A DNA stretch of 35,363 nucleotides from Actinomycetes bacterium. Its GTDB lineage: Bacteria; Actinomycetota; Acidimicrobiia; Acidimicrobiales; Microtrichaceae. The stretch's first letter is position 1, and each line of letters starts with the position of its first letter. Location: positions 1 through 35,363 of the forward strand of contig JAUXGW010000006.1 in the NCBI GenBank assembly GCA_030621865.1. The letters run 5' to 3'. The position numbers and the translations under genes were made by a program. Shown piece by piece: positions 12,867 through 21,076 of this stretch. The notes beneath the pieces were generated by a model. The model did no database searches, had not been told where the DNA came from, and worked only from the letters and a program-made list of their open reading frames with translations.

Positions 12867-15551
12867 TCAGGAACAGCCGCTGGTGCTGCCACATTCCTGA
12901 CACACGAAACACGATCCGGCGCGGCTCATGACAACTCCACAGCTCATGCACAGGGGAGCATCCGAAACGGGTCGTTTCGATTCCGTGACCGTTGCTTCCT
13001 CGATACCGGGAAGAGTCTGCTGGGTGCGCTCGGAAGTACCCAGAACCCCGAGGTCCTGACGCACTTCCAGCGGCAAGTATTCGATGGCCAGCCTGCGGAA
13101 CAGATAGTCGACCAGGCTATTGGCGATACGGACCTCCGGGTCATCGGTCATGCCTGCCGGTTCGAAGCGCATTCCCACCAGCGCTTCGACGAAGGCCTCC
13201 AGGGGAACGCCGTACTGCAGACCATGACTGACCGAAATTGCAAAGGCATCCATGATTCCCGACAGGGTCGAACCCTGCTTGGAAACCCGGAGAAACAACT
13301 CTCCGGGTCGGCCGTCTTCGTATTCGCCCACAGTCACAAAACCCTTGCAGTCCGCCACCCGGAATTCAATGGTACGTGAAGGTCTTGACCTGGGGAGGCG
13401 CTCACGGGTCGGGCGGCGGGCTTCGGAGGCCACGGAATCCACTATCTCCGTTGAGGTCCCCACGTTGAGGGGCTGCGATACCTTGCAGTTGTCCCGATAG
13501 AGGGCCACACACTTGATGCCCTTTTGCCAGGAATCGATCAACAAGAGTTCGACTTCCTCGACACTCGTGGTTTCAGGCAGGTTGACCGTTTTCGACATCG
13601 CACCAGAGAAGAATGGTTGCAGCGCAGCCATCATCCGCAGGTGCCCTCCATAGGCGATGACCGTGCCATCTTCGACAGTCCCACCCATCGCACAGGCGAA
13701 TACCGGGAGATGTGCCGGTTCCAGGCCGGGAGCTCCCGACATGGTGTGGTTCTCGCGTAGGTATTCGGTGATCGCACCGATCGTGTACTCGGTGTAACCC
13801 AACGCCTGCAGCGCCCTCGACACAGTCTGATTGACGGACTCTATGGTGCCGCCACCCACCAGCTTCTTGTGCTTCACCAGAGCCAGTTCAGGCTCGATAC
13901 CCGTGGTGTCGGCATCCATCATGAAGCTGATCGTGCCGGTGGGAGCCGCCACGGTGAGTTCCGCGTTGCGGGCGCCGTGCACCTTCAAGCGATCGCAGGC
14001 CTGCTGCCACAAATCCACCAACCACTGATTCAGGTCGGTCTGGGTCTGCACGGCCGATACCGACCTTGCCGACTCGAGATGCATGTCGTATACGTTCTGC
14101 CACGGCTCGGCGTTGGTCGAGTACAAAGGCGCCGGCTCGAGGTCCTCGGCCAGTTCGGTACTGCGCACTGCAGCCGCGCCGGTGAGAATCCCGGTGACAG
14201 CCGCGGCCCAGGCCCGACCATCTTCCGAATCGTAGGGAAGACCCATGGCCATCAGTGAAGCGCCGAGGTTCGTGTAACCAAGGCCGATGTCTCGTGCTCT
14301 TTCGGACTGGGAAGCGATTTCCTCGGTGGGATAGTCGGAAGAACCCACAAGGATGTCCTGGGCGGTCACAAGGACGCGGGCCGCCTGCACGAATCCCTCA
14401 ACGTCGAAGTTTTCGTCCTCGTCCAGGAATGACAAAAGGTTGAGTGACGCGAGGTTGCAGGCGCTGTTGGGCAACCGCAGGTGCTCCGAACACGGGTTGC
14501 TGGCGTCGATCCGGCCTTCATTCGGAGTGGTGTTCCAGCGATTGATCGTGGTGTCGAACTGAACTCCGGGATCTGCGCATTCCCAGGACGCCTCCGCGAT
14601 CTGTCGGAGGAGGTTTCTCGCATCGACGGACTCAATGACCTCGCCGCCGAGTCGGGCCGTCAGGTCCCAGGTCTCGCCGCCAACGGCAGCCTGCATGAAC
14701 TCATCGCTGAGGCGAACGGAGTTGTTGGCATTCTGGTATTGGACAGAGTGGATGTCCTTGCCATCGAGGGACATGTCGAATCCAGCCCGTTCCAGGGCGT
14801 GGGCCTTGCGTTCCTCGATGGCCTTGCACCAGACGAACTCCTCGATGTCGGGGTGATCATCATCGAGCACAACCATCTTGGCGGCCCTTCTGGTGGTCCC
14901 GCCGCTCTTGATCGTTCCTGCCGATGCGTCGGCACCGCGCATGAAGCTCACCGGACCGGACGGTTCTCCGCCACGGGAGAGTTGTTCTTTGGCGGACCGG
15001 ATCTTGGAGAGGTTCACTCCAGCACCCGATCCTCCCTTGAAGATCAGGCCTTCCTCCGTATACCAGTTGAGAATGGATCCGAGGTCGTCTTCCACATCGA
15101 GGATGAAACAGGCAGCAGCCTGTTGGGTGGCCCCGGGGACGCCGATGTTGAACCAGACGGGTGAGTTGAACGAAGCGCGCTGATTCACGAGGAGATATGT
15201 GAGTTCGTCGGCGAACACCATGGCTATCTCTTCGTCGGAGAAATATCCTTCTTTCAGGCCCCATTGCTTGATCGCGTTCACCACGCGCCCGATCACCTGC
15301 CGCAGCGATGATTCGCGTTCCGTACTGCCCAGGGAGCCCCGAAAGTACTTCTGGCTGACGATGTTCCCGGCAGTCACCGACCAGGAGGTCGGGAACTCGA
15401 CATCGCGTTGTTCGAAGACAGGTTTGTCCGTGCGGAAATCGAGCATCACACAGTCGCGTTGTCCCCACTCGACCGAGTCCAGGGGATCTGTTCCATCCGA
15501 TGTGAACCATCTCTTGATCTGTCGATCGGTTTCAACTGGTGACAAACTCAT
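12867..15551 (-). CDS. nrdJ: Adenosylcobalamin-dependent (class II) ribonucleotide reductase
   Basis: FNSPVWFNIGV, NPCSEHLRLPNSACNLASLNLL, APTGTISFMMDADTTGIEPELALVKHKKLVGGG, C-terminal zinc-ribbon-like CMSCGVVMSRAGSCFVCQECGSTSGCS. Confidence 0.95.
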   Translation of the reverse strand: MSLSPVETDRQIKRWFTSDGTDPLDSVEWGQRDCVMLDFRTDKPVFEQRDVEFPTSWSVTAGNIVSQKYFRGSLGSTERESSLRQVIGRVVNAIKQWGLKEGYFSDEEIAMVFADELTYLLVNQRASFNSPVWFNIGVPGATQQAAACFILDVEDDLGSILNWYTEEGLIFKGGSGAGVNLSKIRSAKEQLSRGGEPSGPVSFMRGADASAGTIKSGGTTRRAAKMVVLDDDHPDIEEFVWCKAIEERKAHALERAGFDMSLDGKDIHSVQYQNANNSVRLSDEFMQAAVGGETWDLTARLGGEVIESVDARNLLRQIAEASWECADPGVQFDTTINRWNTTPNEGRIDASNPCSEHLRLPNSACNLASLNLLSFLDEDENFDVEGFVQAARVLVTAQDILVGSSDYPTEEIASQSERARDIGLGYTNLGASLMAMGLPYDSEDGRAWAAAVTGILTGAAAVRSTELAEDLEPAPLYSTNAEPWQNVYDMHLESARSVSAVQTQTDLNQWLVDLWQQACDRLKVHGARNAELTVAAPTGTISFMMDADTTGIEPELALVKHKKLVGGGTIESVNQTVSRALQALGYTEYTIGAITEYLRENHTMSGAPGLEPAHLPVFACAMGGTVEDGTVIAYGGHLRMMAALQPFFSGAMSKTVNLPETTSVEEVELLLIDSWQKGIKCVALYRDNCKVSQPLNVGTSTEIVDSVASEARRPTRERLPRSRPSRTIEFRVADCKGFVTVGEYEDGRPGELFLRVSKQGSTLSGIMDAFAISVSHGLQYGVPLEAFVEALVGMRFEPAGMTDDPEVRIANSLVDYLFRRLAIEYLPLEVRQDLGVLGTSERTQQTLPGIEEATVTESKRPVSDAPLCMSCGVVMSRAGSCFVCQECGSTSGCS

Positions 15552-15592
15552 CTGGAAGGCCCTTCGCCGTTCATGGATCCTCCGCGGTTCAT
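15548..15592 (-). other. Possible 14-codon leader ORF (MNRGGSMNGEGPSR*) overlapping the nrdJ start
   Basis: ATG AAC CGC GGA GGA TCC ATG AAC GGC GAA GGG CCT TCC AGA TGA; its TGA overlaps the nrdJ ATG (ATGA). GGAGG sits 4 nt upstream of each ATG. Confidence 0.45.
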
Positions 15593-15628
15593 GGATCCTC
15601 CGCCTTACACGGATCCTCCGCCTTACAC
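15557..15628 (-). repeat. 18-bp tandem repeat, about 4 units, in the nrdJ leader
   Basis: Reverse complement: GTGTAAGGCGGAGGATCC / GTGTAAGGCGGAGGATCC / ATGAACCGCGGAGGATCC / ATGAACGGCGAAGGGCCT. Confidence 0.9.
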
Positions 15629-15900
15629 GGATACGGCCCGTGGGGCCGCTCGAACCTTACGGGGATTCTGTTGTGTGGCGAAAGGGGTACAACCTGTGGA
15701 TACTTGTGCATATTCCTGCGCCAGCGGGCGGAACGGGGCACCGTCGCGCCACCGAAGGTGATCGAAGCCGACGAATTCCCGCCTGAGTAATCACTCAGTG
15801 CAGTCGGGCTCACCGCATTTGACTGAATCTCATGCTCTTTCCGTGTCCACAGCCTGCGGATAACCCTGTGGAAAACATTTCCTGAAGTACGCTCCGGCGA

Positions 15901-16635
15901 ATGGAGCAACTTCTTGCAGCCGGAGCACCACTCGACGACGTCACAGACGTGTTCGAGGTACTTCACGCCGACCGCGGTCCGGCACCGGACGGCAGACCCT
16001 GGGTGAGCACCAACATGGTGATGAGTGCCGATGGCTCCTACACGAGCGATGGACTCTCCGGCGGCCTGAGCTCTCCGGGCGACAAGGATCTGTTCATGGC
16101 CCTGCGAGCGCTGAGCGACGTGGTTCTGGCCGGAGCCTCCACGGTTCGCAAAGAGGGTTATCACCGGCCGCGGGCTCAGGGCTTTTCCCTGAACGCCCGA
16201 CATCGCGATGGCCAGGAACCTGCACCTACGCTCGTGGTGGTGAGCCGATCGATGGATCTCGGAACCGAGGCTCCAGTACTTTCCGATGACGGACCGAAGC
16301 CCATCATGGCTCACCCCCGCGGCGTCACCCTGCCGCCGGATCTGAGCGGATTGGAGGATCTGGCGGCCGGCGACGACGGCGTCGACATGGTCGAGCTCAT
16401 GTCGGCCCTTCACTCGCGGGGCGTCAGGAGTGTGATCTGTGAAGGAGGGCCGCATCTGCTTGGCCAACTTGCCGCAGACGATCTGATCGACGAGTACAAC
16501 CTGACGCTCGCACCGACTCTGGTTGGCGGCACCGACACCGGCCTGCTCGGTGGATTCAGTGTTGGCCGATCCTTCCACCTGCACCGAGTGCTGCGCGACG
16601 GGGATCACCTCATGCTCTGTTACCGGCGACACTGA
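15901..16635 (+). CDS. RibD C-terminal / DHFR-like reductase domain protein (pyrimidine reductase family)
   Basis: RPWVSTNMVMSADGSYTSDGLSGGLSSPGDKDLFMALRALSDVVLAGASTVRKEGY and SVICEGGPHLLGQL; no deaminase domain. Confidence 0.8.
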   Translation: MEQLLAAGAPLDDVTDVFEVLHADRGPAPDGRPWVSTNMVMSADGSYTSDGLSGGLSSPGDKDLFMALRALSDVVLAGASTVRKEGYHRPRAQGFSLNARHRDGQEPAPTLVVVSRSMDLGTEAPVLSDDGPKPIMAHPRGVTLPPDLSGLEDLAAGDDGVDMVELMSALHSRGVRSVICEGGPHLLGQLAADDLIDEYNLTLAPTLVGGTDTGLLGGFSVGRSFHLHRVLRDGDHLMLCYRRH

Positions 16636-16652
16636 GGTCACCGGCTTGGTGC

Positions 16653-17051
16653 TCACCGCGGTGAGGGGATCGCAATCACATCACCCACACGGAGGCTGCC
16701 GAGGCCTCCATTGAGCGCGGCCAGATCGGCGACCGCTTCGCGCCGGTCCACCCCGGGCATGTATCCGCCCGCAATTGACCAGTACGTATCACCGGCACCC
16801 ACACGGATCACCTCACCCGAGGAGATCGGGCGGGTTGGTGCGGGATCACCCAGGTATGAGAACGCAGTCAGGGCGCCGCAGGCGACGATTGTCACCAACA
16901 CCAGCAGAACGGCTGCCCGGCGAATCAAGTAGGTGACGCGGGTTGGCGGATACAACCATGCGAGCGAAGGCTGTGACGGGCGACGGTGAGTGTGTGGAAT
17001 CTGGACTGTTAGGGCCATGAGAGAAGTCTCCATTAAGGGTGTGACAGCCAC
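16653..17051 (-). CDS. Single-pass membrane LysM domain protein, divergent from lexA (YneA/Rv2719c-like cell-division suppressor candidate)
   Basis: TM RRAAVLLVLVTIVACGALTAF followed by VIRVGAGDTYWSIAGGYMPGVDRREAVADLAALNGGLGSLRVGDVIAIP (LysM). Start may be internal (MALTV, about 17018). Confidence 0.75.
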   Translation of the reverse strand: MAVTPLMETSLMALTVQIPHTHRRPSQPSLAWLYPPTRVTYLIRRAAVLLVLVTIVACGALTAFSYLGDPAPTRPISSGEVIRVGAGDTYWSIAGGYMPGVDRREAVADLAALNGGLGSLRVGDVIAIPSPR

Positions 17052-20269: not shown

Positions 20270-21076
20270 TCAGCGGCCCGCTGGAGGCGGAGGTGCTGAT
20301 GGAGGTGGTGGAGGAGACTCATCCCCCGGTGGTTGTGTTGGAAATGCAGGGGGCTGTGCTGGAGGCGCGGGCTGTGTTGCAGGTGGGGGCTGTGTTGGAG
20401 ATGCAGGGGGCTGTGCTGGAGGCGCGGGCGGCGGATACTGGGGACTCACCGGACCGGGCGTTGATCCCTGCGGTCCGGTGCCCACCGGTGACGGAGCCTG
20501 TGGCGGCACGCCATAGAACGGTTGTGGCTGTGAGTTCCGCTTCTTCCAGTTGCTCCGGCGGACGAGACCCACAATCAGTGCAATCACGGCCAGGAGGATG
20601 AACAGCCCGAATCCACCTCCGCCGGAGACCATCCAGATCAGGGAATTGCCGATCCCGGGATCAGACACCACCACATACTCGTCAAAGGGAGATTCGCTGC
20701 CGCAGGTGATCGAGTACGTCTGATCGACCTCGGTGTCGAAGACCAGAAAATCCACATAGTCAATCTCGTTCACCGAGATGGTCGTTCCGGGGCCGACGGA
20801 GCTGAACCGAATGTCCTCCCCAGATGCGTCCGTACCCTGGCAGACCGCCGAATCGGTCAGGAGGACAACAGCACCGTCCGATGAGGCGACGTAGCTGAGC
20901 GGCGAACCGAAGGGCACGGTGTTCGTGGCCTCGTCAATCAAGTCGGGCAACTCGCTCAGCACGCGAACGCCACCAAACGCGGCGACACCGCAACCTGCGA
21001 GGGCGAGCACGAAGAACACCAGAGATGCCCAGAGCCAACCGGAGGGTGCCTTGGCTGATCCGTTTGTTGTGTTCAT
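20270..21076 (-). CDS. Membrane protein with Pro/Gln-rich C-terminal tail
   Basis: Two TM segments (WLWASLVFFVLALAGCGVAAF; FGLFILLAVIALIVGLV) and tail PPAPPAQPPASPTQPPPATQPAPPAQPPAFPTQPPGDESPPPPP. Confidence 0.7.
   Translation of the reverse strand: MNTTNGSAKAPSGWLWASLVFFVLALAGCGVAAFGGVRVLSELPDLIDEATNTVPFGSPLSYVASSDGAVVLLTDSAVCQGTDASGEDIRFSSVGPGTTISVNEIDYVDFLVFDTEVDQTYSITCGSESPFDEYVVVSDPGIGNSLIWMVSGGGGFGLFILLAVIALIVGLVRRSNWKKRNSQPQPFYGVPPQAPSPVGTGPQGSTPGPVSPQYPPPAPPAQPPASPTQPPPATQPAPPAQPPAFPTQPPGDESPPPPPSAPPPPAGR
20334..20428. repeat. 57-bp period direct repeat within the Pro-rich tail coding region
   Basis: tgtgttggaaatgcagggggctgtgctggaggcgcggg at 20334 and tgtgttggagatgcagggggctgtgctggaggcgcggg at 20391. 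Confidence 0.85.

Follow-up and report, generated by a model that had tools for sequence, protein, structure and literature searches.

In bicistronic design (BCD) leaders, the Shine-Dalgarno sequence (SD) that serves the target gene lies within the leader cistron, whose stop codon overlaps the target start codon. Such leaders are used in biotechnology (for example, PMC5995908). Translationally coupled short upstream ORFs that end in an NTGA overlap have the −4 arrangement, the most frequent one among coupled genes, and some short ORFs are described as serving merely to deliver ribosomes (PMC12548453). Mycobacterial interspersed repetitive units (MIRUs) appear mobile and occur at many sites (PMC12548453). 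TAACTGA direct repeats, which also occur at many sites, are short, lie just upstream of start codons, and have a suggested translational role (MacGregor 2015, PMC4679880).

The window analyzed here, a 35,363-nucleotide stretch of DNA from a member of the Microtrichaceae (contig JAUXGW010000006.1), carries nrdJ on its minus strand, directly preceded by four 18-bp units (15628-15557), each an SD/start-codon unit in the same frame. Like the NTGA-coupled short ORFs, this leader has an SD, an ATGA overlap, and a downstream SD inside the short ORF; it differs in the tandem repetition of its SD/start unit and in the presence of start-stop units, and coupling is putative here. As in BCD leaders, the target SD lies inside the leader cistron and stop and start overlap, but the nrdJ leader is natural, is shorter in a sister species, and has its first SD repeated. 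The array shares with MIRUs a repeated short-ORF unit in an actinobacterium and a next gene placed for coupling at −4 spacing, whereas its unit is 18 bp long, slippage-like, and found at one site. It resembles the TAACTGA heptamers in being short and just upstream of a start codon, but it is an 18-mer at one locus with a full SD and start codon. The array is most likely a lineage-specific expansion of a leader mini-ORF that is probably coupled to nrdJ, and thus a variation on a known arrangement rather than a demonstrated switch.

Promoter and architecture of the nrdJ leader

The features of the leader are collected in Table 1. Direct reading of the minus strand bore out the coordinates, 18-bp period, and common frame that a preliminary description had assigned to the units, along with its two GTG-TAA start-stop units and its 14-codon leader whose TGA overlaps the nrdJ ATG. 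Unit 4 is followed by TCCAG and then by the ATGA at 15551-15548. Tandem Repeats Finder reports a period of 18 with 3.2-3.4 copies and a score of 88-89. The lag-match score is 36 at lag 18, a value that none of 2000 dinucleotide shuffles attained (shuffle maximum 11); the repetitiveness of the array is far beyond chance. Units 1 and 2 are identical and would therefore represent the latest duplication, pointing to a recent expansion. A second tandem repeat with a similar score (period 18-21, about four copies) is present at 20334-20429, inside an ORF at 20270-21076.

Table 1. Features of the nrdJ leader region in the window
Feature	Position	Strand	Evidence or remark
nrdJ, class II (B12-dependent) ribonucleotide reductase, 894 aa	12867-15551	−	Pfam PF02867, PF08471, PF12637
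Leader mini-ORF, 14 codons from the U3 ATG (8 from the U4 ATG)	15548-15592	−	TGA overlaps the nrdJ ATG as ATGA
18-bp tandem array including flanks	15549-15632	−	Direct read, Tandem Repeats Finder, shuffle test
Unit 1 (U1), GTGTAAGGCGGAGGATCC, GTG-TAA start-stop	15628-15611	−	Direct read
Unit 2 (U2), same sequence as U1, GTG-TAA start-stop, SD −9.5 kcal/mol	15610-15593	−	
Unit 3 (U3), ATGAACCGCGGAGGATCC, ATG of the 14-codon mini-ORF, SD −9.5 kcal/mol	15592-15575	−	
Unit 4 (U4), ATGAACGGCGAAGGGCCT, internal in-frame ATG and nrdJ's own SD, GAAGGG	15574-15557	−	
Small GC hairpin between the promoter and the array, at the predicted 5′ end of the mRNA	15633-15649	−	Stem partly kept in the sister species
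Probable −10 hexamer TAAGGT (TAGGGT in most relatives)	15654-15659	−	Element aligned in 19 leaders
Upstream promoter/operator element TATCCACAGGTTGTACCCCTTTCGCCACACAACAGAA, strongly conserved	15666-15702	−	One difference from the sister species; recognizable in other family members

A family-conserved promoter lies about 30 nt upstream of the array. The element upstream of nrdJ in the family, ATCCACA..TTGTCCCTCTT..CCACAGG-N8-CGTAGGGT, is common to the window and its sister species. The position of this promoter suggests a transcription start near 15647, and the whole array should therefore be within the nrdJ mRNA. The promoter/operator element also contains GTTGT...ACAAC inverted half-sites, which are near-identical in both species though nrdR is missing from both.

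The 16S tail of the window genome bears a normal anti-SD, GGATCACCTCCTTT. An SD is present before three of the four start codons of the array, with a duplex energy of −9.5 kcal/mol each; the GTG of U1 has none before it (−2.5 kcal/mol), and U1 provides the SD for U2. The 4-nt spacing between these SDs and their start codons is shorter than usual, which counts against a coupled leader. The SD of nrdJ itself is found 8 nt before the ATG, with an energy of −7.1 kcal/mol. It had been called weak and distant: weak it is, compared with −9.5 to −10.0 kcal/mol, but 8 nt is a normal spacing.

The array had also been proposed to load ribosomes or hold them on standby. An initiating ribosome occupies about 30 nt, or roughly two units. 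This footprint exceeds the 18-nt unit, so adjacent units would be mutually exclusive and no ribosome queue could form; loading of several ribosomes is thus unlikely, and we set this candidate aside.

Comparison with a sister species and the proposed mechanism

Comparison within the genus is with one species, G001 (contig JAHRAZ010000126, a Microthrixaceae MAG), at one genome per species. Its NrdJ is 93% identical to that of the window, and its nrdJ DNA is 90% identical. The G001 leader consists of ACGAAACGCGGAGGATCC, ATGAACGGCGGAGGGCCT, and TGCAGATGAGC in succession, the first two being repeat units. It thus has two units versus four in the window, and since the length from the −10 hexamer to the ATG is otherwise equal, the difference is exactly two units. 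G001 has one 8-codon mini-ORF, retains the ATGA overlap, and contains no GTG-TAA units and a single GGATCC. Its SDs for both the mini-ORF and nrdJ have energies of −10.0 kcal/mol, so that its nrdJ SD is at full strength. The two units are themselves weakly repetitive, an old repeat equaled by 18 of 2000 shuffles; the first pairs best with window U3 (16/18) and the second with U4 (17/18). The start, the stop overlap, and 6 of 8 residues of the mini-ORF are conserved, which in two species is not firmly separable from shared descent.

Copy number therefore differs between lineages, as in a variable-number tandem repeat, and the anticipated variation in unit number among related nrdJ leaders is found as 4 versus 2 in two species. 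The expectation that the array and its start-stop units would be conserved fails: the array is absent from all other genera of the family examined, and G001 has no GTG-TAA unit. The simplest history would be an old two-unit leader with two units gained in the window lineage; alternatively, units may have been lost in G001, the array having no outgroup.

Other occurrences of the unit were also sought. A strict SD/start tandem pattern gives four other matches in 33 family genomes, about equal to a reversed control pattern, so the same tandem is not found elsewhere in these genomes beyond the control level. The sequence GGCGGAGGATCC has two copies in the array and three exact copies elsewhere in the genome, all three coding-like. 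This argues against a dispersed repeat or a mobile origin of the 18-bp unit and against the dispersal at several start codons that characterizes MIRUs.

Coupling of the mini-ORF to nrdJ, as suggested earlier, is the natural reading of a leader that is expected to be transcribed, that keeps its mini-ORF and ATGA in G001, and whose nrdJ SD is weaker in the window. The mini-ORF has its own SD and start, which would lie on the same transcript as nrdJ given a promoter recognized by conservation, and the NTGA overlap is present at 15551-15548 in the window and in G001. Our main reading, to which we assign a probability of roughly 0.6, is that this is a natural bicistronic leader in which the mini-ORF is coupled to nrdJ by ATGA, with its SD/start unit expanded here by slippage. 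Ribosomes would initiate at the U3 or U4 ATG, each of which has a strong SD, terminate on the ATGA, and then re-initiate at the nrdJ start, whose own SD is contained in the mini-ORF. The anatomy can be read directly, and re-initiation is the step that we infer from it. The two-unit form would be common to both species of the genus compared, with expansion to four copies in the window lineage, most simply by replication slippage because the 18-bp period is exactly tandem. This expansion would have given the mini-ORF a second in-frame start and created the two GTG-TAA start-stop units. Because the period is a multiple of 3, the added units stay in the frame of the mini-ORF and would leave the ATGA coupling intact. 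The nrdJ SD appears to have lost one G in the window lineage (GGAGG to GAAGG), and since it is the weaker, nrdJ would depend more on coupling in the window than in G001. The additional units are probably close to neutral, or they may adjust nrdJ expression modestly through the frequency with which 30S subunits land near the mini-ORF; they could make landing nearby more likely or divert ribosomes unproductively to GTG-TAA.

A second reading, which we hold to be possible though clearly less probable, is that the array is nothing more than a slippage microsatellite in a leader without structure, where nrdJ starts on GAAGGG, the mini-ORF is an incidental feature, and the number of units makes no difference. 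The restriction of the array to this genus, the unequal unit number in the two species, leader folding that does not surpass shuffled sequences (z −0.1 to −1.5), and the SD that nrdJ retains at normal spacing all fit such a repeat. It accounts less well for the strong SD kept in every unit but the one serving nrdJ and for the ATGA overlap and 8-codon frame kept in both species.

Folding also bears on an RNA switch in which alternative GGATCC-GGATCC pairing between neighboring units would hide or expose SDs. The self-complementary GGATCC is repeated at 18-nt intervals, and the minimum-energy fold pairs that of U2 with that of U3. However, the array and mRNA leader show no structure beyond shuffles (z −0.13 to −1.48), and G001 has a single GGATCC, making this switch very improbable. 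A search of window positions 15000-17000 against Rfam 15 (cobalamin riboswitches and all other families) gave no match at E ≤ 1, ruling out an Rfam riboswitch in the leader.

Leader RNA and nrdR in related genera

In other genera of the family, a structured RNA of about 138 nt lies between the same promoter and nrdJ. Its closing stem is 15 bp long, and its internal junction contains the conserved sequences GGAAUGGUGGCUGG and CUCCUGGGGGU. An alignment of 18 sequences contains 29 pairs, 15 of which show compensatory double changes. In a model-fitted alignment of 44 distinct sequences, 91.7% of cells pair, and neither any of 500 shuffles nor any slid control matches the observed covariation; because of that fitting, these counts lean toward the model. 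The RNA model (R1) recovers a single copy in each of 26 of the 33 family genomes, and switching the filters off adds G010. Among the family genomes lacking a match, G031, G028, G013, and G006 either match nrdJ only in fragments or have a leader truncated at the end of a contig. Across 199 genomes of the order, R1 gives 23 single matches, of which 22 adjoin nrdJ (the exception is L102), and in 398 genomes of the phylum it gives two matches outside the order, neither beside nrdJ. Example loci in sister genera and other families of the order are L011:1277-1411, L015:1296-1430, L024:4148-4286(−), and L019:1024-1162. The relatives' nrdJ leaders that were tested have no match in Rfam 15. The RNA is plausibly a candidate riboswitch-like element or other cis-regulator for the B12-dependent enzyme.

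Many nrdJ leaders from other families (L041, L044-L051, L055-L061) contain NrdR-box-like palindromes, for example CCACTACATCTTGTGG, and have no R1 match, which suggests alternative control layouts.

With filters off, R1 gives only chance-level scores in the window and G001, none of them at the nrdJ leader, leaving no sign of a relic of the relatives' RNA in either. The genus differs from its relatives in nrdR as well. Most other family genera keep nrdR in the nrdJ cluster, with the order nrdJ, RibD_C, nrdR, LysM, lexA, THDPS in G009. The order in the window and in G001 is nrdJ, RibD_C, LysM, lexA, THDPS; in the window RibD_C ends at 16635 and LysM starts at 16653, leaving 17 bp between them. 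The loci that bear on the absence of nrdR from this otherwise syntenic cluster in both species of the genus are window 16635-16653 and L110:4109-4636(−). NrdR was detected in 24 of 33 family genomes and nowhere in the window genome or G001, drafts that are 93% and 95% complete with a contiguous nrdJ cluster in each. In both species of the genus, then, nrdR is missing from its usual position and the leader RNA is absent, and the array would therefore sit on a leader stripped of ancestral control.

This setting lends some appeal to the earlier proposal of a copy-number-tunable switch. In the form considered here, slippage in the population would vary the units and start-stop units would hold or release ribosomes, setting nrdJ output. 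The array lies in the leader of a gene without its nrdR repressor and structured RNA, its two identical units look recent, and unit number varies between species. Yet each species is represented by a single genome, an array of four is small for phase variation, no SD precedes the first GTG-TAA, and with a frame-preserving period of 18, copy changes cannot switch coupling off. We consider such a switch improbable and prefer the bicistronic leader with its slippage expansion.

It can be suggested that the array compensates for the losses of nrdR and the leader RNA. In a stronger form, which we judge doubtful at best, the genus would have rebuilt nrdJ control after those losses from a repeat-expandable SD/start mini-ORF array whose unit number sets translation. 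The array is a compact natural test case for repeated SD/start units and start-stop codons acting on a coupled gene, set in a genus without the usual nrdJ controls. The covarying RNA of its relatives, which has no Rfam match, is probably a larger discovery than the array.
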